The notes under the pieces were generated by a model. That model was not told the DNA's origin, searched no databases, and worked only from the letters and a program-made list of their open reading frames with translations. Shown here piece after piece: positions 9,165 to 23,990 of a DNA stretch of 64,000 nt. Numbering within the stretch: the first letter of the stretch is position 1; each line of letters starts with the position of its first letter. A program made the translations under genes and the position numbers. Source of the stretch: Gemmatimonas phototrophica (GTDB taxonomy: Bacteria; Gemmatimonadota; Gemmatimonadetes; Gemmatimonadales; Gemmatimonadaceae); assembly GCF_000695095.2 (NCBI RefSeq), contig NZ_CP011454.1:186001-250000 (forward strand), in the 5' to 3' direction.

Positions 9165-9203
9165 TTGCCCAATGTGCCCAGATAGACGTCATATTTGCTG
9201 GTA

Positions 9204-10829
9204 ATGCAAAAACCTCTTCTTCAACGGTGTGGCGCACTGGCTGCGAGCCTCGTGGCCCTCGCAACCGCCTGCGTGGGTCAGCGCCAGACGACCGTAACAC
9301 CACGGACGCCGACCGAAAGTGCACCGTCGTCCACGGTGATCGACGGGGCCTTTGACGATTGGCGCGCGGTACCGGTGTGGGCTCGGTTCCCCGCTTCGTC
9401 CGCAATGGCCAGCGCACCACTCACGGTGCAGGCGAATGACGATTCGCACTTTTTCTATCTGTCGGTAGCGCTGCGCGACAGCACGGTGGTCAGCGCCATG
9501 TCCGGCACGATGCACCTCCTCATCGATGCCGATGCGGATAGCACGACCGGCGGCACCGCGTACGACATGCGCGGTGTGGATTTCGCGCTGGATCTGTCGA
9601 GGCTCGACATTGTGCAGGCGGGCGTTCATGGAGCCGGAATCGCCTTACGCACGATCACCAGTGCGGGACTCGGCGCGTTTCGCTCGGCCTACGAACTCCA
9701 GGTCGTTGCGCTGCCCGGCTGGAGCACCGATCGGTTTGAGCTCCGGATTGCCCGAGACGGTGCGCCGCAGGGCTGGCCGCGTCTCGGGGCGCAGATACGC
9801 GCCCGGATGGTGCGGGTGGCCCCCGACAGCGCGCGTGTAGCGACCCCCGTGCAGCGGTACGTGTTCACAACACCGCTCGATACCACGCCGTTGCGCGGTG
9901 CGTCGTCGGTACCCGACAAAGCGCCAGGAGCGGTGCGCGTGGCGCACTGGAATGTCTCCGAGGGGTCCTTCCTTGCGCCGGGCAATCACGCCAAGCTGCT
10001 GGCGGCCGTGTCGCCGGAGATCATCGTGCTCGATGAGGTGTCGGGGGAAGTAGACAGCACGGCGTTGGCGGCGTTTTTTGCCCGCCCCGAGTTGGCCCGA
10101 ATGGGGAGCTGGCGCTTCGTGCATGGGCAGAGTGGCGGGCGGCAACGCGGTGTGGTGGCGGCGCGCGGGCGTGCCATTCGGGCCGAGCCGAGTATGCGCT
10201 ACATGCGTTACCCCGATGGGTCGCTCGACAGTCTCGCGCGCAGTGATGCACGAATGCAAGCGCGATTCATCGACACGGAGCGTCGGGCGAATATCGCCAG
10301 TACCGGCGCGTGGGTAGACGTGGACGGCATTGAGACGCTCTTCGTCACCGTGGACCTGACCAGCGGTGGATATCTCGGCAGCCCCAACGACGCCTTTCGC
10401 CTGCTGCAGGCGCGTACGATGCGTCGCTATGTACTCGACGCCATTGGACAGGGATCATCCCGCGCGCCGGTGGTGATTGCCGGTGACTACAACTCGGTGG
10501 CGTCGTACGAGTCGGTGCGCACGCTGCAGCAGTCGCTGGATACCGATGGTTCGGACCTGACGTTGAATCGCGCGTTGCGGTTGGATGGTCGTACCGCCAG
10601 CACGTGGCGCAACGACAGTGTCGCGCAGTTCACGCCAGGGCGACTCGATCTGGCACTCTACTCCGACCGGGCGTTCGAGCAGACCGGTGGGTTTGTGTTT
10701 GCCGCGGAAGACCTGACAGACCGCTTGCTCGGATCGCTGCAGATCACCCGGGATATGTCTAGGCAGTCCTCAGACCACCTTATTGTGGTGACGGATCTGC
10801 GGCGCAAACAGGGAGCTCCTCGTAAATAG
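9204..10829 (+). CDS. Exported endonuclease/exonuclease/phosphatase (EEP) family protein
   Basis: ATG 9204 gives a lipoprotein-like signal (ALAASLVALATAC, Cys about residue 23) and a 541-residue product. Residues about 45-230 resemble a CBM9-like beta-sandwich (VIDGAFDDWRAVPVWARF is the hallmark entry strand). The C-terminal 300 residues are an EEP domain: VRVAHWNVSEGSFL (Asn of the first motif), a conserved Glu in DEVSGEVD, IAGDYNSVASYESV (Asp-x-Asn) and the final SSDHLIVVTDLR (Asp-His). These are the metal and catalytic residues of phosphoesterases in this family. The substrate (nucleic acid, phospholipid or other phosphodiester) is not predictable. Confidence 0.85.
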   Translation: MQKPLLQRCGALAASLVALATACVGQRQTTVTPRTPTESAPSSTVIDGAFDDWRAVPVWARFPASSAMASAPLTVQANDDSHFFYLSVALRDSTVVSAMSGTMHLLIDADADSTTGGTAYDMRGVDFALDLSRLDIVQAGVHGAGIALRTITSAGLGAFRSAYELQVVALPGWSTDRFELRIARDGAPQGWPRLGAQIRARMVRVAPDSARVATPVQRYVFTTPLDTTPLRGASSVPDKAPGAVRVAHWNVSEGSFLAPGNHAKLLAAVSPEIIVLDEVSGEVDSTALAAFFARPELARMGSWRFVHGQSGGRQRGVVAARGRAIRAEPSMRYMRYPDGSLDSLARSDARMQARFIDTERRANIASTGAWVDVDGIETLFVTVDLTSGGYLGSPNDAFRLLQARTMRRYVLDAIGQGSSRAPVVIAGDYNSVASYESVRTLQQSLDTDGSDLTLNRALRLDGRTASTWRNDSVAQFTPGRLDLALYSDRAFEQTGGFVFAAEDLTDRLLGSLQITRDMSRQSSDHLIVVTDLRRKQGAPRK

Positions 10830-11026: not shown

Positions 11027-14000
11027 GTGTCCTCTTCGTCCCCACTCGAAAGTTTTGCGCCGGTCGCGCTTGCCGCCCTGCTGGACGGCGACGCCGCTGA
11101 TCCCGCACATCTGACGACTCGCGGGGGCGCGCTGTTCGTGGACATCGCCGGCTCCGTCTCGCTCGCGGAGCGGCTGATGACGCTGCACGGCGTGCAGGGG
11201 ACCGCCGAACTGTCGCGCGTGTTGAGCGCCACTTTCGCGCCACTGGTGCATCTCATCCACGAAGCGGGTGGTGAAGTGGTGCAGTTTGCCGGCGACGCGC
11301 TGCTGGCGGTGTTCCCGGCCAACTATGCCCACGACGAATGGGCCGCCGTACAGGAAGCGATTGAAGCGGCCGAGCGCATGCTCGCGCTCGAACTCACGCG
11401 CGGGGTCACGCTCCGCGTGGGGGTAGGGGCTGGTGCCTTCACCATTGCCCGGCTTGGTGGCGATATGCACCAGTCGGAACTGGTGGTCTATGGCCCCGCG
11501 GTGGCCGAGTGTTTTGTGGCGGCCGCGTCCGCCCGGGTGGGCACGGTTGCGCTGGGCTCCACCGCCGCGGCGCGTCCGAATGCTGCGCAGTCGCCACCCC
11601 GCCCGCGCACCACGCAGTGGCGTGCTGCCCTGAAGCCCACCAGCGTGACGGCGTTGGTTCCGCGGTCGGTCCGCACACGCATTACGGAAGGGGCCGATCC
11701 GTGGCTCGCGGAATCGCGCCAGGTGACGGTGCTCTTTGCGCTTGTGCATGGCATCTCACTTGAGGCGCCCGAAGCGGTGCAGCAGCTGCATCACGTTACT
11801 GAAGCGTTCAAGCAGGTGGTGCACGAGCACAATGGATTCGTGCGTCACGTCAGCATTGACGACAAGGGCATCGTGGCCGTGGCGGCTTTCGGTATTCCGC
11901 CCATGGACCGCGAACCGCAGCCGGCGGATGCGCTCCACGCGGCCATGGCGTTGCAGACGGCCACCGAATCGCTGGGGTGCTCCGTTTCCGTGGGCATTGC
12001 CACCGGACGGGTGTTTTGTGGTGCCATTGGCGCCGAGTCGCGACGGGAGTACGCGGTGGTGGGACGCACGGTGAATCTGGCGGCGCGTCTCATGGGCAAA
12101 GCGCAGGGCGCCATTGTGTGCGACGAAAGCACGCAGCAGGCCGCCCACGCGATCGCGCGCTTTTCACCTCTCCCGCCTCTTCTGGCGAAGGGCTTTGCCG
12201 ACGCTGTGGTGCCGCACCGGTTGGAGGCGCTCGACGACCCCACCAAGGCCGCGCTGCGCACGCCCACGCCGCTCTTTGGACGGGACACTGAGCTGCGTCG
12301 CCTTCTGGAAGTGGCGCAGGATGCCACGGCCGGCCGGCGCACGGTGCTCCTGGAGGGGGCGCCGGGGCTGGGCAAGAGTACGCTGTTGCGCGCCTTCGCC
12401 GATGCCGCAGCCCGTACCGGTACGGTGGTGCTCAAGGGACAGGCGCAGTGGAATCAGCGCGCCGCCTCGTATCACGCCTGGGTGCCCATTGTGCAGGAAC
12501 TGCTGGGCGTGCAGGACGACCTGGACGCCGCACGGCGGCGCGAGACCGCCGAGCGGATGGCGGTGGGTGATGAGTCAGTGGCGCGTCGGTTGCCACTGCT
12601 CAACGACGTGTTGCCCGTGGGGCTGCCGGAAACGGAGTGGACCGCTGGTCTCGATGGCACGTCACGCGCGGAAGAAACCCGCGGACTGCTGCTCGATCTG
12701 TTGGTGCGCTATCGCGGTACGCGCACGCTGGCGCTGATCATCGATGATGCGCAGTGGTGCGATGGCGAATCGTGGGCCATGGCGCTGCGCGGATTGAACG
12801 ATGTCTCGGGAATCCTGTTGGTACTCTCGGTGCGCGAAACACAGGCGATCCCGGTCGAAGCGCGCCGGCTGCTCGATGATCCGCGTACCACCGCCCTGGT
12901 GCTCGGCGCACTCGATACCACTGCCATCACTGCGGCCGCCGCCGTTGCGCTGGGGGTTCGCCGATTGCCCGCCGCCATTGGTCAATGGCTGCAGACGCAG
13001 GCGGGGGGTAATCCTTTCTTCGCGCGCGAGCTCGCGCTGTCGCTCGTGCAGCAGGGCGCGGTGGAAGTGGCTGACGGATTGGTGGTGCGCGCGCCGACCG
13101 CTGACGCGCTCTCGCGCATGGCACTACCCGCCTCCATGGAAGCGCTGGTGTTGCATCGCATTGATGCGCTCGATGCCACGCAGCAGGCGCTCCTCAAGAT
13201 GGCGAGCGTGTTGGGCTTCACGTTCACGCGACAGGATCTGCACACCATCCATCCGGTTGCGGAGCGCGTGGATCGGCTGAACGACGATCTGGCGGCATTG
13301 GTTCGCGCGCAGCTCATTGTCTCCACCGAGCGTGGCTACGCCTTTGCGCACCAGATCATCGTCGACACCACGTATCGCATGATGGTGGGCGATCAACTGC
13401 GTCAGGCGCACGCGCAAGTGGCGGCGCTGCTGGCGGCCCGCGCCGGCGATGAACCGGGTGCCATGGCGGGGCAGGTGGCCTACCACGCTCTGGCGGCCGG
13501 CGACACCACGGCCAGCTTCCGATGGCTCTCCGCAGCCGCCGACGAAGAGCTGCGCAAGGGTGCCTTTCGCGATGCCGTATATCACTTGCAGCAGGCGCTG
13601 ACGCTGGATGAGCAGTGCGGATATCCCATGGATACCACGCAACGGGCGCATTGGTATCGTTTGCTTGGTGATGCGCACGAAGGGTTGGGTGAAATGCAGG
13701 ACGCGCAGCACAGTATGCAGAGCGCGCTGCTGCATCTCGGCATTACCCTGCCGGCGTCGTCCGGCGGCTGGCTGCGGTTGGCGCTGCGCGAGCTCCTGCG
13801 TCAGCTCACGCATCTGGTGCTCACCCCCAAGCCGTACCCGGCGGATAGTCCGGAGTGGCGACGCGCGCGGGACATTGCGCTCGCGATGATCACCATCTCC
13901 GAAGTGCAATACGGCGACAACAACGCCAATGGCATGGCGGCCATGATCTTTGGCGCGGCCAATTCCGGTGATCGCCTTGGCGAAGTGCCCGGTGTCTCGC

Positions 14001-15037
14001 GCGTGCTGGGGCTGGTGGGCGTCAGCTTTGCCATGCTCGGCGCCGCACCACTGGCGCGTCGCTACTTCGATCGGGCCGAACGCGTGGGCGCCAACATCGG
14101 TGACATGAGTGGCCGCGTGCGCACGTCGGTGGCTTATGGCTCGTGGGCCACGTGGACCGGCGGACTGGCCCGTGCCGCGGGCATTTTGCAGCACGCTCGC
14201 ACGCAGGCCGAGACCCACGGCCTTCGGCGTGAGTGGGAGATGGTGGTTGGGGTGGATGCCAACGAACAGCTGGCGCGCGCCGATTACGAGGGCCACCGCA
14301 GCATGGGTGCGCTGCTGCTCACCACCTCGCGTGAACGTTCGCGTCCCTTGGGACGGGTGTGGGCCTTGCTCATTCTCTCCAGCAATCATTTGCGCACCGG
14401 CCAACTGGATGCCGCCGGCGAGGTGCTGGAGGAGCTGCGCGGCATTCCGGATTTGCTGGCGCAGGAGCAGGTGCAGGCCGACGGCAATACGCTCATGCTG
14501 GCGGTCCGTCGCAACGACTGGACGCAGGTGCGACGCATGGCGGACGTGGTGGCCGATGGGCTGGGTATTCGTCGGGTGGGCGGCAACCCGGCGGGGCCAC
14601 GCATCGTGATTCCCTTTCACTGGCAGCCCTTCTGGGCGCATTCGGAAGCGCGCGTGGCGTTGCTGGAGCGCGCCTCACCGGTAGAGCGCGTGCAATTGCT
14701 GCGTGATGCCGACGCGGCGGCCCGAGCCCATGTCGCCTTCGGCAAGCAGTTCCGACTGGGAGAAGTGGGGGCGTTACTCTGTCACGGTCGTGTCCAGAGT
14801 CTGGCTGGCGCCGAGGCGCGCGCCAACCGACTGCTGGCGCGCGGCGTGGCGCTGGCCGAGGAGTTCGGCATGCCGTATGAATTGGCGCGGGGCATTGCCT
14901 TTCAGGGGTTGGCAGCGGCGGCCGGTAGCGCCGAACGTCGCCGGCTGTTGGCCGATAGTCGCCAGCGGTTTGCCGCCATTGGCTCGCGGTGGGAAGTGCA
15001 GCAGGTGGAACAGCTCATTGCCAGAGATCACGTATGA
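11027..15037 (+). CDS. Soluble adenylyl cyclase-like protein: tandem class III cyclase domains, AAA/STAND ATPase and helical repeats
   Basis: GTG 11027 gives 1336 residues; ATG 10922 would add 35 residues that do not resemble protein of this family. Domain C1 (about 33-170) has both metal aspartates, Asp39 (FVDIAGS) and Asp90 (FAGDALLAVF). Domain C2 (about 230-380) has the substrate-type Lys280 (SIDDKGIVAV) and the transition-state pair Asn350/Arg354 (VNLAARL). This split of catalytic residues is that of human ADCY10 (D47, D99; K334, N412, R416, from memory). A P-loop follows (GAPGLGKST, Lys450) with Walker B at LALIIDDAQW (about 570), then some 600 residues of helical TPR-like repeats. It should make cAMP, or possibly cGMP. 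The bicarbonate-binding Lys95 of ADCY10 aligns with Gln86. Its stop overlaps the next start (ATGA). Confidence 0.9.
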   Translation: MSSSSPLESFAPVALAALLDGDAADPAHLTTRGGALFVDIAGSVSLAERLMTLHGVQGTAELSRVLSATFAPLVHLIHEAGGEVVQFAGDALLAVFPANYAHDEWAAVQEAIEAAERMLALELTRGVTLRVGVGAGAFTIARLGGDMHQSELVVYGPAVAECFVAAASARVGTVALGSTAAARPNAAQSPPRPRTTQWRAALKPTSVTALVPRSVRTRITEGADPWLAESRQVTVLFALVHGISLEAPEAVQQLHHVTEAFKQVVHEHNGFVRHVSIDDKGIVAVAAFGIPPMDREPQPADALHAAMALQTATESLGCSVSVGIATGRVFCGAIGAESRREYAVVGRTVNLAARLMGKAQGAIVCDESTQQAAHAIARFSPLPPLLAKGFADAVVPHRLEALDDPTKAALRTPTPLFGRDTELRRLLEVAQDATAGRRTVLLEGAPGLGKSTLLRAFADAAARTGTVVLKGQAQWNQRAASYHAWVPIVQELLGVQDDLDAARRRETAERMAVGDESVARRLPLLNDVLPVGLPETEWTAGLDGTSRAEETRGLLLDLLVRYRGTRTLALIIDDAQWCDGESWAMALRGLNDVSGILLVLSVRETQAIPVEARRLLDDPRTTALVLGALDTTAITAAAAVALGVRRLPAAIGQWLQTQAGGNPFFARELALSLVQQGAVEVADGLVVRAPTADALSRMALPASMEALVLHRIDALDATQQALLKMASVLGFTFTRQDLHTIHPVAERVDRLNDDLAALVRAQLIVSTERGYAFAHQIIVDTTYRMMVGDQLRQAHAQVAALLAARAGDEPGAMAGQVAYHALAAGDTTASFRWLSAAADEELRKGAFRDAVYHLQQALTLDEQCGYPMDTTQRAHWYRLLGDAHEGLGEMQDAQHSMQSALLHLGITLPASSGGWLRLALRELLRQLTHLVLTPKPYPADSPEWRRARDIALAMITISEVQYGDNNANGMAAMIFGAANSGDRLGEVPGVSRVLGLVGVSFAMLGAAPLARRYFDRAERVGANIGDMSGRVRTSVAYGSWATWTGGLARAAGILQHARTQAETHGLRREWEMVVGVDANEQLARADYEGHRSMGALLLTTSRERSRPLGRVWALLILSSNHLRTGQLDAAGEVLEELRGIPDLLAQEQVQADGNTLMLAVRRNDWTQVRRMADVVADGLGIRRVGGNPAGPRIVIPFHWQPFWAHSEARVALLERASPVERVQLLRDADAAARAHVAFGKQFRLGEVGALLCHGRVQSLAGAEARANRLLARGVALAEEFGMPYELARGIAFQGLAAAAGSAERRRLLADSRQRFAAIGSRWEVQQVEQLIARDHV

Positions 15038-16260
15038 CACAGAGCACGTGGACGGTTGAATCACTCGGTGAGGCCCGCCAGTGGGGTGACCCATTGGCCG
15101 CTGGTGCCGTGAGCGCCGCCTTTGGCCTTGCCGACGATATCGAGCTCGGCACGCGGCGCGTTGCCGACTTCATGCAGATGCTCGTGCGGGAGGAGGGGAT
15201 CCCGCACGGCCAGATACCGCCTCTCGTGAAGGACTTTTTGGAGCAGGCAGCCGAGGTCCCGTCGTGGTACAGAGGGGAAAAACTGTTGGAAGGCGAGAAG
15301 CTGTTCATGGAGCACGGCCTGCTCAGTCTCGCCTCGCTGTTGCACGCCAGTTTGCCGGAGTGCTACCTCATGGAGCGCGGCGTGCATGTGCTCTATCTGA
15401 CGCAGCAGCTCGATGCCCACGTGTTTCGCCGACTGCTGGAAACCGCACAGATGGTGGTGACGGTCATGTCGCCCGGTGGTATTCGCGAAGAGAATGGACG
15501 TCTCGTGGGCCCCGGTGTAAAGGTCGCGCTCAAGGTGCGGCTGATGCATGAGACCATGCGGCACCTCATTCAAGATGCCTCGGACGCGACGCCCAACACC
15601 CCGGCGCTGCGACTGTCGGAGGTGATGATCAAGTGCCCGTGGCAGCGTCAGCAGTGGGGGGCGCCCATCAATCAGGAGGATATGGCGTACACGCTGCTCA
15701 CGTTCGGCTACGTGATTCCGCGTTCGCTGGTGCGGCTTGGGGTACCACTCGACAAGGATGCGCAGGAAGCCATCATGCACGCGTGGAATGTGGTGGGGCA
15801 TGTGATGGGGGTGCATCACTCCCTCATGGCGCACACGTTGGCGGATGCCGAGGCGCTCTATGCCATGATTCAGAAAACGCAGGCGGCGGAGAGCGACATG
15901 GCGAAGGGGATGACTCGGAGTCTGGTACGGGTGGTGCGCGATCAGTTGCCGTTCTTCCTCCAGTGGGCGCCTCCGGTGCTCATTGAACATTTGTGTGGAC
16001 CCGAGGCGGCGAAGATGCTGGGGGTACGCAACCAGAGTTTCTGGGGGCGCCTCTTTCACGGACCGGCATTACGGCTCCTGCGTTTTGTGCTCAAGCTGGA
16101 GGCGGTGTTCTTCAACAGTTCCAAGGCCGGTCGTTGGGTGCTCTTGCACTTCGGGGAGCATATGGTGCGCTTGCTGGCCCGGTTTCCCAAGGGGACACGC
16201 GACCGTTCGTTTGAACTGCCGCACGATGTGGCGGTGGCGTGGGGGCTGGCGCGGTCATGA
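15034..16260 (+). CDS. Oxygenase MpaB/latex-clearing-protein (Lcp) family, DUF2236
   Basis: The 408-residue protein starts at ATG 15034 inside the stop of the cyclase gene. Lcp enzymes are b-type haem dioxygenases that cleave poly(cis-1,4-isoprene). The haem region is recognisable: KVRLMHETMRHL matches R-x-x-H-x-x-x-R (R195/H198/R202 of Lcp K30, from memory), and RRLLETAQMV carries the upstream Arg and Thr. WGAPINQEDMAYTLLTFGYV is the next conserved block. There is no signal peptide, unlike exported rubber oxygenases, so the substrate is likely internal and could be a carotenoid or polyprenyl chain (inference). It is the second gene in the four-gene overlapping operon. Confidence 0.85.
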   Translation: MTQSTWTVESLGEARQWGDPLAAGAVSAAFGLADDIELGTRRVADFMQMLVREEGIPHGQIPPLVKDFLEQAAEVPSWYRGEKLLEGEKLFMEHGLLSLASLLHASLPECYLMERGVHVLYLTQQLDAHVFRRLLETAQMVVTVMSPGGIREENGRLVGPGVKVALKVRLMHETMRHLIQDASDATPNTPALRLSEVMIKCPWQRQQWGAPINQEDMAYTLLTFGYVIPRSLVRLGVPLDKDAQEAIMHAWNVVGHVMGVHHSLMAHTLADAEALYAMIQKTQAAESDMAKGMTRSLVRVVRDQLPFFLQWAPPVLIEHLCGPEAAKMLGVRNQSFWGRLFHGPALRLLRFVLKLEAVFFNSSKAGRWVLLHFGEHMVRLLARFPKGTRDRSFELPHDVAVAWGLARS

Positions 16261-17267
16261 CGGTGCCAACAGAACAGTCCGAGTCGCACACCACGCAACT
16301 GGAGCGGGAGAGCCGCAGCGATGTGCGCATGCTGGTGGTGTTGCTGGTCACCCTGGGGGTGGCTGGTGCGCTGTCGCTCAATGCGGTCCAGGTTGCTCGG
16401 CCGGCAGTGGATCACCTCCACCAGCAGCCCAGCCCGAACGGATACACGTGGAGTACCGCGCTATTCATTCTCCCCTGTCTGGTGCTGGGCGCGTGGCTGT
16501 ACCGGCACCCGAAGCTGGTGGTGCAGCGTCGTGCGGTGTCCTTTGGGTTGCTTGCCATCGTCCCGGTGTGGTGTGCACTCGATATCCTGCTGGGACGCAC
16601 GTTCTTCAAGTTTCCCAATAAGGGTTCCACCATGGAGTGGTACTTCTGGGGATGGAAGCCGGGGAGCGGCTGGGCACGTGAAATTCCCATTGAGGAGTTC
16701 ATTTTCTACATTGGCGGCGTTGCGGCCATTCAGCTCACGTATGTGTGGTGCAGTGAGTCGTGGCTCTCGCGCTATCGCGCCAGCGATGATGATCGTCGCC
16801 TGCTGGGTGGCAGCAAACTGCATCAGCCGCACTGGAGCTCCTTGCTCACCGGCGTGGCGCTCTTTGGTGCCGCCTGGGCCTACAAGGTGCTGGTAGCACA
16901 TTCCACGGGCATCCCCGGGTACTTTGGTTTTCTGCTGTTGAGCAGCGTGTTGCCCATTTTCATTTTTCTCAATGTGGTGCGACCGCTCATCAACTGGCCG
17001 GCGTTTGCCGTGACCATGTTGTTGCTGGTGTTTGTGTCGCTCCTCTGGGAGGTGACGTTGGGCATTCCCTACGGCTATTGGGATTATCAGCAGGAGCAAA
17101 TGATCGGCATCTTCATTCGGCCGTGGAACAATCTGCCGGTGGAGGAACCGCTGCTGTGGGTCGCGGCCGCGTGGCTCAACGTGATCGTGTACGAAGTCAT
17201 TCAGCTATTGCTCGTTACGCGGCGATCACTCTGGTCGCTGGTGATGCCACACCGGAGCGCGACATGA
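16257..17267 (+). CDS. Lycopene cyclase domain-containing membrane protein
   Basis: ATG 16257 overlaps the preceding stop. The 336-residue protein has about eight hydrophobic helices and two copies of the P-x-E-E signature of CrtYc/CrtYd-type lycopene beta-cyclases: REIPIEEFIFYIGGVA near residue 150 and NLPVEEPLLWVAAAWL near 295. Heterodimeric and fused CrtYcd cyclases carry one motif per half. The protein is longer than the usual fused enzyme (about 235 residues). Cyclisation of lycopene ends or of another polyene is the family role; whether this member acts on carotenoids is unknown. No crtB or crtI is in the window. Confidence 0.78.
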   Translation: MTVPTEQSESHTTQLERESRSDVRMLVVLLVTLGVAGALSLNAVQVARPAVDHLHQQPSPNGYTWSTALFILPCLVLGAWLYRHPKLVVQRRAVSFGLLAIVPVWCALDILLGRTFFKFPNKGSTMEWYFWGWKPGSGWAREIPIEEFIFYIGGVAAIQLTYVWCSESWLSRYRASDDDRRLLGGSKLHQPHWSSLLTGVALFGAAWAYKVLVAHSTGIPGYFGFLLLSSVLPIFIFLNVVRPLINWPAFAVTMLLLVFVSLLWEVTLGIPYGYWDYQQEQMIGIFIRPWNNLPVEEPLLWVAAAWLNVIVYEVIQLLLVTRRSLWSLVMPHRSAT

Positions 17268-17944
17268 ATACTGCGGTTCCACTTACGCCGCTTGATCGCC
17301 AGCGCTGGCAGTTGGTGCTGGGCACCATGGCGCTGGGGATGGCCCTCATTCTGCTGGCCGCCAGGTTTCATCTGGGGTGGAAGGTTGCCGCCCTCAGTGC
17401 GCTGCTCATCAACGCGCTCTTGTTGTGGCACGCCTTGGCCCGCAAGGACGCCCTCTTTCTGAAGCTGTTTGTCTTTGGACTGGTGGCCGGTATCGCCGAA
17501 TTACCCTCCGACTGGTTCTCGGTGTCGGTGAAGGGCGTGCTGTCGTACCCCGGCGGTGAGCCCATGGTATGGACCAGCCCTCTGTACATGCCGGCCGGCT
17601 ATTCGGTGCTGCTGGTGCAGTTTGGCTGGGTGGGGTGGCGCACACTGCACCGCTTCGGACTGGCCAAGTCGGTGCTCATTACCGGTGTGGCGGGCGGCGC
17701 CATGGTGCCGGTGTACGAGTATTTGGCGCACAGCGCCAACTACTGGACGTATCAGAACACCGCGATGCTGTTCAACACCGTGCCGTATTACATCCCCGCG
17801 GGCGAGTTTGTCTTCATGGCCGCGGTGCCGTTCATGCTGCGCAAGCTGGATCGTGGTGGTCTGGGTACCGCGACTGTGCTGGGTGTGCTGGAAGGCGCCA
17901 TCATGTTTGTGGCGTGGTGGGCCTCGTTCCAGCTGCTGCAGTAG
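17264..17944 (+). CDS. Integral membrane protein, last gene of the cyclase-oxygenase operon
   Basis: ATG 17264 overlaps the preceding stop, the third ATGA overlap in a row. The 226 residues form about seven hydrophobic helices. Segments such as LKLFVFGLVAGIAELPSDWF, PLYMPAGYSVLLVQFGW and VPYYIPAGEFVFMAAVPFML place acidic residues and prolines in membrane helices in a way that faintly recalls the P-x-x-E pattern of the upstream cyclase-like protein, so a distant relationship is possible. No family is recognised. It converges with the TonB receptor 28 bases downstream. Confidence 0.75.
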   Translation: MNTAVPLTPLDRQRWQLVLGTMALGMALILLAARFHLGWKVAALSALLINALLLWHALARKDALFLKLFVFGLVAGIAELPSDWFSVSVKGVLSYPGGEPMVWTSPLYMPAGYSVLLVQFGWVGWRTLHRFGLAKSVLITGVAGGAMVPVYEYLAHSANYWTYQNTAMLFNTVPYYIPAGEFVFMAAVPFMLRKLDRGGLGTATVLGVLEGAIMFVAWWASFQLLQ

Positions 17945-20519: not shown

Positions 20520-20636
20520 CGGACCGCGATGTAGAGAGGCGAGGCACCACACCGTGCGGGCATTGGTGCACGGCACATGGTAATTGCACCGGAACGGTGG
20601 GGAGTTCAACTGCTCATACGGTTTGGGTTTCCATCT

Positions 20637-20850
20637 ACGGCGGTTCAGGTTTGGACCTGCCACAGCGGTTCTGGACGGCCACTGCGGTTTTGGACGACCA
20701 CTGCAGTTGAGGAACACGGCGGTTGGGGTGGAGATGGAAGCGCCCGCCGGCTTCGCCGGGCGGCACTTTCCGCAGAAACCCGAACTGCTGTGCTCCTCAA
20801 CTGCAGTGGCAGTCCAGAACCGCTGTGGCCGTGCCATGCCAGTTGCCGAC
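20637..20850. repeat. Dispersed CTGCAG-unit repeat, locus 1 (compact form)
   Basis: Units such as GCCACTGCGGTTTTGGACGA and CCACTGCAGTTGAGGAACAC run in one direction (20637-20735), then a GC-rich hairpin (GCGCCCGCCGG-CTTCGCCGGGC), then the units run in the opposite direction (CTCAACTGCAGTGGCAGTCC, 20801 on). It occupies most of the 20520-20900 gap between the divergent TonB receptor and kinase genes. Relative to the copies at 25084 and 33515 it lacks the central 80-90 bases. Confidence 0.85.
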
Positions 20851-20900
20851 CCCCGGATCTCTGCTGCAGAATTGGCCATGTCCATTTCCCGGATCTGACA

Positions 20901-23900
20901 TTGAGCGAACTGCAGGATACCCTGGGACAAGTACTGCACACGACTCATCGCGTCGTACGTGAGCTTGGCGGCGGCGGTATGTCCCGTGTCTTCTTGGCGG
21001 TTGAAACGGCACTCGATCGCGAAGTCGTTGTCAAAGTGCTGCCACCCGAAATGGCGAGTGGGGTAAGCACCGACCGCTTCCGCCGTGAAATGCAGATGGT
21101 GGCCAAGCTGCAACACCCGCACATCGTGCCGGTGCTGAGCACCGGAGCGGTCGGAGATCTGCTCTATTACATCATGCCGTACATCAGCGGCGAATCCCTG
21201 CGGATGCGCCTGCAGCGGGAGGGAGCCCTCCCCGTTGAGGCCAGTGCGCGCATGCTGCGGGAGGTCGCCGATGCACTCAACTTCGCCCATGGTCATGGCG
21301 TGGTGCACCGCGACATCAAGCCGGACAACGTGCTGCTGTCGAGTGGTCACGCGCTGGTCACGGATTTTGGTGTGGCCAAGGCACTGAACATTGGCGCAGA
21401 AACCGGGGCGGATCATTCGGCGCTGACGTCGATCGGTTTGGCGATGGGCACTCCTGCCTACATGGCTCCTGAGCAGGCCATGGCCGACCCACTCACGGAC
21501 GGTCGCGCCGACCTGTACGCATTCGGCGTGATGGCGTATGAAATGCTGGCGGGGCAGCAGCCCTTTACCGGTACGAGCCCGCAGGCATTGATTGCGGCGC
21601 ATTTGACTCGTGAACCGGAGTCGTTGCGCGTCTACCGCAGTGCGGTCTCACCGGCGCTCGATGCCCTCGTACTCAAGTGCCTTGCCAAGCGGCCAGCCGA
21701 TCGCTTTCAAAGTGCCGCGGAGCTAGTGCCACTGCTCGATGGTTTTGCGCACGCCACATCTGCGGCAACTGCACCAGCGATGGCTACACCTTCGCCTGAG
21801 CATGGTCAGCGCGCCCATGCACCCTCGAAGAGGTGGGTCCTGCCTGCGCTGAGTACGCTCGGCATCGCCGCCGCAACGTGGACACTCCGCCAGCTCTTCG
21901 GGCTCCCTGACTGGATCGCGGCCACCGTCTTTGGAGTCGCGCTGATTCCGGTGGTGATGACCTACCTGTTCCGACGGAGACTTCCCGGCCCGGTGGTTGT
22001 GGCTCCCACATTGGCACGGCAGCGCATGCTGCTGGCCACTGCATGGAGCGGCGTCGTGCTGGTCGCGTCAGCTGGTGCGCTCTATGGGCTCAAGGCACAA
22101 GGGATTGGCCCCTTTGCCACGCTCCTGACGGATGGCGCCATCGCTGAACGTGATCGACTGCTGGTGGCAGACGTGGGCAATGCCACCACCGACAGCACGC
22201 TGGGTGTTGCACTCACGGAGGCGCTTCGCATCGACCTGTCGCAATCCAAGGTCATGCGCCTTATGGCTCCCACCGAGATTCGTGACGGGCTGCAGCGCAT
22301 GCAGCGCGATGTCCAGGGTACTCTCACCGCCGACATTGCTCTGGAGTTGGCCGCCCGTGAAGGGGCGAAGGTAGTGGTTTCCGCCGATGTCGCACCATTC
22401 GCCGGTGGCTTTGCGCTGTCGGCCCGCGTGCTCGATGTGCAAGGACAAACACTGTATGCCACGCGCGCCACGGCCAACACGCCAGCGGAGATCATTCCCG
22501 CCGTGGAGACACTGTCGCGGGCCATCCGTGGGGCGATCGGTGAATCGCTGCGAAGCATCCGGGCCACCGCGCCGCTGGCCAAGGTGTCCACGTCGTCCCT
22601 CGAGGCATTGCGGTTGTACTCGGTCGCCGAGCGCAGCCGTCAGACGGGTGAAGACGTCGATCGATTGCCTATGTATCGCCAGGCCGTGGCATTGGATTCC
22701 ACCTTCGCCATGGCCTGGCGCGGGATCTACGCCGATCTGAATAACCTGCGCGGCGATCCAACCGGGAGATTGGAGGCGGCGGATCGGGTCTTCCGCTACA
22801 AGGATCGATTGCCAGCCAAGGAAGCGCTCTACGGCGAGGCGCTCTATGCGTCCATCCAGGGCAACCTCGAGGAAACAGTGGCGGTGTACCGGCGTATTGC
22901 CGTGCAATGGCCCGATGAGGTGACGGCTCGCAACGGCATTGGCCTCTATCTGCGAGCGCTGCTGCGCTACCCGGAATCAGAACGCGTGCTCACTGAGCTC
23001 GTGCAGTCAGGCAAGGCACCGGCCTCGTCGTACTACAATCTCGTCACCACCCAGATTCCGCAGGGGAAGTTCAAGGAGGCGGAGCGCACGCTGCTGCAAA
23101 TGCAGCAGAAATTCCCCGTTTCCCCGCAGCGTTGGCAGGCAGGGTACTTTCTGGCGAGCGCCACGAATCAGTTCCCCAAGGCTCTGGCCATGGGCGATTC
23201 TCTGACCACCGCCGGCGGAGCCGGGTTCCGCTATTGGGGCCACCTCTACCGAGCGGAAGTCTTCTGGCTGCAGGGGCAAATGGCCAAAGGGCGGCGCAGT
23301 ACCATTGGTGCCCGACAGGCCCAGCGGGATCAGCAGAATCCCGGGACTGCACTACGGACGGAGTTGTGGGAGATCTTCACCGATCTGCAGCTGCGTGGCG
23401 ACACCACCGCAGCACGCGCGCTCACGAAATCAGCGCTGACGAATACCGTCTTTGACTCGTTGCCACTCGCCAGTCGCCCGTGGGGAGATCTGGTACGCTT
23501 GTACGCCGCCATGGGGCAAACGACTGAGGCAAAGGCGCTGTTCGCCCGCTATGAACAAGCCATGCCGGAGCTGTGGCGGAACGATGACGCGAGCATGGAA
23601 CGCGGTCTCGCGCAACTGGCCTTGGCAGAATCGCGTGCCGAGGTGGCGGTACCATTGGCGCGAAAAGGGGCGGAGGGATGTGACGGATGTTCGGGTGACC
23701 TGCTCGGACAGGCTTTCGAACGTCTGAATCAGCCCGATTCAGCGATTGCTGCCTACGAACGCGCCCTGCGCCCTCCGACATACGGCTCGGGGTTTCAGAA
23801 CTGGCGTCCGGCCATCGTGCCTCGTACGCTGTTCCGCTTGGGTGAGCTGTACGAGAAGGTGGGCAACAAGAAACTGGCCCGTGATCGCTACGCGGCATTC

Positions 23901-23990
23901 GTCGATCTCTGGCAGCAGGCCGACCCCGAATTGCAGCCGGCCGTCCGTGCGGCCCGCGAACGGCTTCGTGCGCTGTCCACCGAAGGGTGA
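20901..23990 (+). CDS. Serine/threonine protein kinase with membrane anchor and TPR-like C-terminal region
   Basis: TTG 20901 is the likely start (1029 residues): it begins just before the kinase domain, and upstream in-frame codons lie in the intergenic repeat. The domain is complete: glycine loop ELGGGGMSRVF, VAIK-type lysine in VVVKVLPPEM, HRDIKPDNVLL, DFGVAK, MAPEQ. A hydrophobic segment pair near residues 315-400 (LPALSTLGIAAATWTLRQLF, IAATVFGVALIPVVMTYLF, LATAWSGVVLVASAGALYGL) would anchor it, and about 600 C-terminal residues form tetratricopeptide-like helices outside the membrane. This is the usual kinase-TPR architecture of the phylum. The target is unknown. Confidence 0.9.
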   Translation: MSELQDTLGQVLHTTHRVVRELGGGGMSRVFLAVETALDREVVVKVLPPEMASGVSTDRFRREMQMVAKLQHPHIVPVLSTGAVGDLLYYIMPYISGESLRMRLQREGALPVEASARMLREVADALNFAHGHGVVHRDIKPDNVLLSSGHALVTDFGVAKALNIGAETGADHSALTSIGLAMGTPAYMAPEQAMADPLTDGRADLYAFGVMAYEMLAGQQPFTGTSPQALIAAHLTREPESLRVYRSAVSPALDALVLKCLAKRPADRFQSAAELVPLLDGFAHATSAATAPAMATPSPEHGQRAHAPSKRWVLPALSTLGIAAATWTLRQLFGLPDWIAATVFGVALIPVVMTYLFRRRLPGPVVVAPTLARQRMLLATAWSGVVLVASAGALYGLKAQGIGPFATLLTDGAIAERDRLLVADVGNATTDSTLGVALTEALRIDLSQSKVMRLMAPTEIRDGLQRMQRDVQGTLTADIALELAAREGAKVVVSADVAPFAGGFALSARVLDVQGQTLYATRATANTPAEIIPAVETLSRAIRGAIGESLRSIRATAPLAKVSTSSLEALRLYSVAERSRQTGEDVDRLPMYRQAVALDSTFAMAWRGIYADLNNLRGDPTGRLEAADRVFRYKDRLPAKEALYGEALYASIQGNLEETVAVYRRIAVQWPDEVTARNGIGLYLRALLRYPESERVLTELVQSGKAPASSYYNLVTTQIPQGKFKEAERTLLQMQQKFPVSPQRWQAGYFLASATNQFPKALAMGDSLTTAGGAGFRYWGHLYRAEVFWLQGQMAKGRRSTIGARQAQRDQQNPGTALRTELWEIFTDLQLRGDTTAARALTKSALTNTVFDSLPLASRPWGDLVRLYAAMGQTTEAKALFARYEQAMPELWRNDDASMERGLAQLALAESRAEVAVPLARKGAEGCDGCSGDLLGQAFERLNQPDSAIAAYERALRPPTYGSGFQNWRPAIVPRTLFRLGELYEKVGNKKLARDRYAAFVDLWQQADPELQPAVRAARERLRALSTEG

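Follow-up and report, generated by a model that had tools for sequence, protein, structure and literature searches.

Introduction

Proteins that combine nucleotide cyclase, ATPase and TPR domains are common in bacteria, and their input is mostly not known. In bacterial tandem-CHD/AAA/TPR cyclases, as in human soluble adenylyl cyclase (sAC, ADCY10), two cyclase domains are followed by an ATPase and then by repeats. In human sAC, Thr405 is the adenine contact and Lys95 and Arg176 are the bicarbonate residues (PMC12250328). TOMM kinase/cyclase fusions (TIGR03903) likewise contain cyclase and AAA regions, together with a kinase domain.

Enzymes of the LCY/CrtY, CruF and CrtC families work by adding a proton to the double bond of a terminal isoprene; CruF and CrtC act on carotenoids in other bacteria, and the CrtYc/CrtYd (CarR-domain) lycopene cyclases are characterized by membrane helices and two PxE(E/D) motifs. 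TonB receptors of the outer membrane usually carry siderophores or vitamins. Lcp and MpaB-family enzymes (PF09995) cleave polymers (PMC5522427, PMC12724181), the bonds cut by MpaB being prenyl C=C bonds (PMC12724181); in Lcp, Arg164, Thr168 and His198 are crucial, His198 as the haem residue and Arg164 and Thr168 in the active site (PMC5522427).

Here we analyze a locus of Gemmatimonas phototrophica in which, unlike in ADCY10 and the bacterial tandem-CHD/AAA/TPR cyclases, the cyclase gene overlaps genes for membrane isoprenoid-type proteins.

Layout of the Locus

The window, i.e., the whole stretch of DNA analyzed, covers 64,000 nucleotides (G000:C1:186001-250000) of a genome assembled as one contig of 4,716,552 bases. 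The four open reading frames described in the initial annotation are exact in sequence, as are the three ATGA overlaps (15034, 16257, and 17264) that join them, all on the forward strand. No clear Shine-Dalgarno motif was seen before the overlapped starts of genes 2–4, which would fit translational coupling. That annotation had ended the unit at 17944; it extends further and includes a convergent TonB receptor gene that ends 28 bases after gene 4 and had been missed. The features are as follows.

11027..15037 (+): gene 1, tandem class III nucleotide cyclase with an AAA/STAND ATPase and a TPR-like C-terminus, 1336 amino acids, GTG start
11123..11557 (+): gene 1, first cyclase homology domain, aligned to human sAC residues 41–190, both metal-binding Asp kept
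11693..12205 (+): gene 1, second cyclase homology domain, aligned to human sAC residues 282–456, Lys, Asn, and Arg kept, Ala at the Thr405 position
12269..12805 (+): gene 1, AAA_16 ATPase domain, Pfam 68.6 bits, both Walker motifs (A, GAPGLGKST; B, LALIIDDAQW) intact on inspection by eye
15034..16260 (+): gene 2, MpaB/Lcp-type haem oxygenase (PF09995), 408 amino acids, N-terminus not hydrophobic
16257..17267 (+): gene 3, lycopene-cyclase-like membrane protein (LCY family), 336 amino acids, about 8 transmembrane helices
16686..16697 (+): gene 3, first PxEE motif (PIEE, residues 144–147), both Glu invariant among 56 relatives
17136..17147 (+): gene 3, second PxEE motif (PVEE, residues 294–297), first Glu invariant, second mostly Ala in relatives
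17264..17944 (+): gene 4, DUF6989 membrane protein, 226 amino acids, about 7 transmembrane helices
17973..20519 (-): TonB-dependent receptor of the outer membrane, convergent with gene 4, with a signal peptide at which the start was picked by eye

Head to head with the receptor gene, with 57 bases between the starts, lies a gene for a 1137-amino-acid Ser/Thr kinase with TPR repeats (window 20577–23990, +), and the two are possibly co-regulated. On the other side, an Exo_endo_phos (PF03372) open reading frame (window 9195–10829, +) stops about 200 bases upstream of gene 1.

The Cyclase and the Oxygenase

The Pfam content of gene 1 is two Guanylate_cyc domains, then AAA_16, then a repeat-like C-terminus. 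Its GTG start at 11027 is supported by a relative from an uncultured 'proteobacterium' (G404), whose residue 1 aligns with residue 1 of gene 1. The best solved match is human ADCY10 (7e-28), and the initial reading of gene 1 as sAC-like holds for the domain order, for the pair of metal Asp in C1 and for Lys, Asn, and Arg in C2. It does not hold for Thr405, replaced by Ala, nor for Lys95 and Arg176, whose columns are Gln and Val. We are therefore unsure, on the strength of the Thr405 substitution, whether gene 1 is an active cyclase, and sAC-type bicarbonate sensing was considered and dropped because of the other two. The cyclase and AAA regions also match the TOMM kinase/cyclase model, and kinase-AAA-GAF-cyclase proteins adjoin LCY genes in Verrucomicrobia; however, the score of 113 bits is far under the TIGR03903 cut-off of 705.75, gene 1 has no kinase domain, and no TOMM genes were seen at the LCY/cyclase loci examined. 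Relatives of gene 1 with about 30% identity occur on rhizobial plasmids, which shows that the link to LCY does not extend to the cyclase family at large.

Gene 2 matches MPAB_Lcp_cat (PF09995) with 63 bits (cut-off 23) and the Lcp of Streptomyces K30 (1e-7). It had been described as retaining the haem residues of Lcp, which is borne out for Arg164, Thr168, and His198 but not for Lys167, the distal ligand in Lcp, where gene 2 has Glu; this Lys is only 59% conserved among Lcps. Gene 2 further differs from Lcp by a C-terminal extension, and its N-terminus has no hydrophobic segment, in agreement with the earlier view that the export signal of secreted rubber-cleaving Lcp is absent. A plasmid tblastn search with MpaB gave weak matches only. 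In a separate case, an MpaB-family gene on a Streptomyces plasmid (L008 3462–6005) adjoins two polyprenyl synthetase genes, which agrees with MpaB proteins acting on a polyprenyl substrate.

The LCY and DUF6989 Membrane Proteins

To our knowledge, no activity is known for the LCY family or for DUF6989. Gene 3 indeed carries the two PxEE motifs noted initially, and Asp109, Glu146, Glu147, Glu265, and Glu296 are invariant in an alignment of 56 LCY sequences. Its score against the CarR lycopene-cyclase model TIGR03462 is 31.1 bits, below the cut-off of 39.4, and an hhalign comparison of LCY with a canonical CrtYc/CrtYd pair gave p 6e-4. Thus, LCY shares with CrtYc/CrtYd the paired PxE(E/D) motifs, the membrane helices and a weak TIGR03462 score, but differs in falling under the family cut-off, in being a longer single chain and in lying outside crt clusters, mostly in genomes without a carotene desaturase (CrtI) above cut-off. 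No match was obtained between CruF and LCY.

Gene 4, initially left unassigned, matches DUF6989 (PF22497) with 102.6 bits against a cut-off of 27, and its CarR match is weak. The hhalign match between LCY and DUF6989 is local, suggestive but weak (p 0.003–0.04), and therefore we do not claim common descent. Structure models were obtained for gene 3 (pLDDT 91.7) and gene 4 (pLDDT 80.5, built from three sequences only). A PDB sequence search with LCY and Foldseek searches with LCY and DUF6989 returned nothing significant. The top solved match of both models is MvINS, a bacterial Insig homolog (4xu4), with Z of 7.3 and 6.8, against 5.1 and 5.7 for the runners-up, which is below the level trusted for helical bundles. 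Neither the term DUF6989 nor the combination of 'lycopene cyclase domain' with MpaB was found in open-access literature text.

Occurrence in Other Genomes

The exact four-gene order was found only in G. phototrophica, among 395 genomes of the phylum and among the LCY loci in the matches listed from 84,980 species genomes. LCY is present in six of the 395, with no other Gemmatimonas among them, and the DUF6989 model matches in two. Relatives of gene 4 were absent from 99 related genomes, 29 of them of the same genus (1/100 if G. phototrophica is counted). The scan of the 84,980 species genomes gave at least 79 LCY loci which, among the matches listed, are mostly acidobacterial and mostly solo; methanotrophs (Methylobacter luteus) and Nitrotoga are also represented among these matches. 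A search for DUF6989 in 29 other genomes (LCY-bearing or control) found it in only two LCY genomes, in both beside LCY. On plasmids, tblastn detected one solo LCY (Granulicella) and one solo DUF6989 (Halorarius), and viral contigs searched with P0003 and P0002 gave no relatives.

In a tree of 51 LCY proteins, the cyclase- or TonB-linked sequences group loosely (92/89) and branches are long. The closest relatives of gene 3 among the matches listed (43–44%) form a tandem LCY pair (L011 10043–12119) with no cyclase or TonB neighbors detected. Other variants include a Methylomonas LCY open reading frame of 511 amino acids with an extra C-terminal part (L033 9839–11371) and a DUF6989 gene amid heavy-metal P-type ATPases on a haloarchaeal plasmid (L006 7818–8504).

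Recurrent Linkage of LCY With Cyclases and DUF6989

Although the strict four-gene set is not conserved in related genomes, the LCY-cyclase core is. A cyclase lies within 6 kb of LCY in five of the six LCY-bearing Gemmatimonadota, for which the probability by chance is about 7e-11 if the loci are independent and 9e-5 with four related loci counted once. These four (G164, G173, G219, and G386) encode a membrane cyclase of 830–880 amino acids with its catalytic domain about 2 kb from LCY, in genomes that contain just 2–3 cyclase domains each. Their architecture differs from that of gene 1, and these divergent cyclases need not share its job.

The closest counterpart to gene 1 is in the uncultured 'proteobacterium' (L076/L090; genome of 9.3 Mb), where a 1,378-amino-acid cyclase lies 43 bases downstream of LCY and is collinear with gene 1 over its full length (30% over 1,360 aligned positions, 349 bits). 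A divergent DUF6989 gene starts 17 bases past the LCY open reading frame of this genome, and a second LCY is found 7 kb away. In Verrucomicrobia (L009 and L010), LCY is followed within 20 bases by a kinase-AAA-GAF-cyclase of 1,771–1,775 amino acids, then by a FAD enzyme and, as far as the sequence reaches, an ADC-like gene; a similar set in G353 carries a histidine kinase end where these loci have the cyclase. Accordingly, a second conserved LCY set can be described (L009 8143–17780, L010 10001–18583, L101 3017–15759; Verrucomicrobia and Gemmatimonadota), made up of LCY, a giant kinase-AAA-GAF protein ending in a cyclase or histidine kinase, a FAD amine-oxidase-like enzyme and an ADC-like protein. 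Nitrospinota loci (L044/L091) combine LCY with a CruF-CrtC fusion, DUF6989, a FAD enzyme and a TonB receptor; the fusion (L091 10635–12623, -) joins a CruF-type membrane domain (PF04240) to a CrtC lipocalin (PF07143/PF17186), beside LCY and DUF6989.

LCY thus recurs with cyclases and with DUF6989 across phyla. Judged from gene neighborhoods, it is well supported that the LCY-cyclase link is not an accident of one genome, as it involves three cyclase architectures, in Gemmatimonadota, Verrucomicrobia and the unplaced 'proteobacterium'. The initial proposal that a cyclase is tied to isoprenoid-type membrane proteins is therefore strengthened, although it had overlooked the CruF, CrtC and FAD partners of related loci.

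The TonB Receptor as a Fifth Member

The receptor convergent with gene 4 contains a plug (PF07715, 55 bits) and a beta-barrel (PF00593, 113 bits). The LCY-linked receptor of G219 is 48% identical to it (747 bits, compared with 103 bits for the next receptor in the G. phototrophica genome), and those of G173 and G164 are 47 and 48% identical, which indicates by sequence that the receptors of these three LCY loci are orthologs of that in G. phototrophica. In G219 and G164, the receptor gene is separated from the cyclase gene by CrtC and CruF genes; relative to these loci, the extra members in G. phototrophica are MpaB and DUF6989. TonB receptors of other subfamilies stand beside LCY in Methylobacter, Methylomonas, Nitrospinota and G353.

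Proposed Function and Alternatives

We tentatively hypothesize, with somewhat less than even confidence, that the G. phototrophica set is a mosaic island, built around an LCY enzyme, whose products modify a polyprenyl lipid other than a carotenoid and are coupled to a cyclase reporter and an outer-membrane receptor. We infer what each protein catalyzes, which substrate is used and which way the signal runs. LCY and DUF6989 would use their conserved intramembrane carboxylates to protonate the terminal isoprene of a polyprenyl-type lipid, which in most hosts would not be a carotenoid, and to cyclize or hydrate it, and the cytoplasmic MpaB-type haem oxygenase would cut the same chain at one of its C=C bonds. 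What the TonB receptor imports might be this cleavage product, a related compound, or a ligand that acts together with it, and the cyclase/AAA/TPR protein might read the state of the pathway and convert it into cAMP or another cyclic nucleotide. A polyprenyl chain is the simplest common substrate, since LCY/CrtY, CruF and CrtC protonate terminal isoprenes and the prenyl C=C bond is what MpaB cuts. From the recurrence of the cyclase, the state of this chain would be signaled by a cyclic nucleotide, and the presence of the receptor points to exchange through the outer membrane. Against this model, MpaB is found at no other LCY locus, and acidobacterial LCY genes are mostly solo, both among the matches listed. 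The Thr405 substitution of gene 1, the other architecture of the four divergent cyclases and the usual siderophore or vitamin cargo of TonB receptors count against it as well.

Genes 2–4 might alternatively tailor the carotenoids of the host, e.g., in gemmatoxanthin steps lacking known genes. G. phototrophica does have a true CrtI, some of its carotenoid oxidation steps have no assigned genes (PMC8342508), and related loci include CruF and CrtC neighbors. However, the gene set, at 202 kb, is far from crtI at 2,894 kb, and in G412 the canonical CrtYc/CrtYd adjoin crt genes with LCY elsewhere and unlinked. Only 5 of the 27 LCY genomes searched, part of which are incomplete MAGs, have a CrtI above cut-off, and 11 have only short fragmentary matches to the desaturase model (at most about 42 bits), none of them full-length. 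In addition, the carotenoids identified in G. phototrophica are linear molecules, namely oscillol dirhamnosides and gemmatoxanthin (PMC8342508). The 22 genomes below cut-off and these linear pigments weaken the carotenoid reading, and both also speak against the carotenoid-derived product of the initial annotation, and we regard tailoring in G. phototrophica as quite unlikely; since some LCY genomes have weaker full-length desaturase-like matches and some are incomplete, LCY may still have a carotenoid role in some hosts. From this distribution, a family that would likely be labeled lycopene cyclase probably has a different substrate in most hosts. Catabolism of an external isoprenoid, imported by the receptor and cleaved by MpaB, with the cyclase inducing genes, would suit both the receptor and the polymer cleavage known for Lcp/MpaB-family enzymes (PMC5522427, PMC12724181). 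Yet the absence of MpaB from the other listed LCY loci counts here as well, the set has no beta-oxidation genes, and a cyclase or hydratase would be an unexpected catabolic step. The presence of LCY in methanotrophs and nitrite oxidizers also argues against it, and LCY-TonB pairs occur in methanotrophs (L020 and L042), which do not live on isoprenoids; we consider this explanation improbable.

The main rival to the polyprenyl island is a pure sensor complex, in which LCY and DUF6989 would be Insig-like ligand-binding membrane receptors, MpaB a haem sensor of O2 or lipid, and gene 1 the output, with no isoprenoid changed chemically. It draws on the MvINS top match of both membrane proteins, on the resemblance of LcpK30 to globin-coupled sensors (PMC5522427), and on signaling proteins being among the most constant partners of LCY. 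Nevertheless, helical bundles often give Z values of this size, both PxE motifs and the Lcp residues Arg164, Thr168, and His198 are kept as expected for enzymes, and the CruF, CrtC, and FAD partners look enzymatic, so that we assign this possibility a minor though appreciable probability. That the genes are chance neighbors, or share mobility with no common function, might be argued from the patchiness of the set and from the many solo LCY and DUF6989 genes, but is very improbable given the overlapping start and stop codons and the same pairs being rejoined in different orientations across phyla. Overall, the initial interpretation is partly supported, being right in kind, wrong in its emphasis on carotenoids and sAC-like sensing, and incomplete in lacking the TonB receptor.

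Implications

Among the genomes searched, the four-gene unit as such was found only in G. phototrophica, and the association of LCY with cyclases is well supported. Taken together, the gene set and its looser versions in unrelated phyla suggest an undescribed link between membrane isoprenoids and cyclic-nucleotide signaling. A bolder reading, which we think unlikely, is that they belong to a new, horizontally spread signaling class, in which dedicated isoprenoid cyclases or hydratases of the membrane would produce or sense a terpenoid other than a carotenoid, with TonB receptors exchanging it and partner nucleotide cyclases transducing it, forming a terpenoid-hormone-like circuit. DUF6989 gains a genomic context from the LCY/cyclase loci. 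For the cyclase/ATPase/TPR proteins, the pairing with LCY offers a concrete candidate input, a membrane isoprenoid, together with a small gene set.
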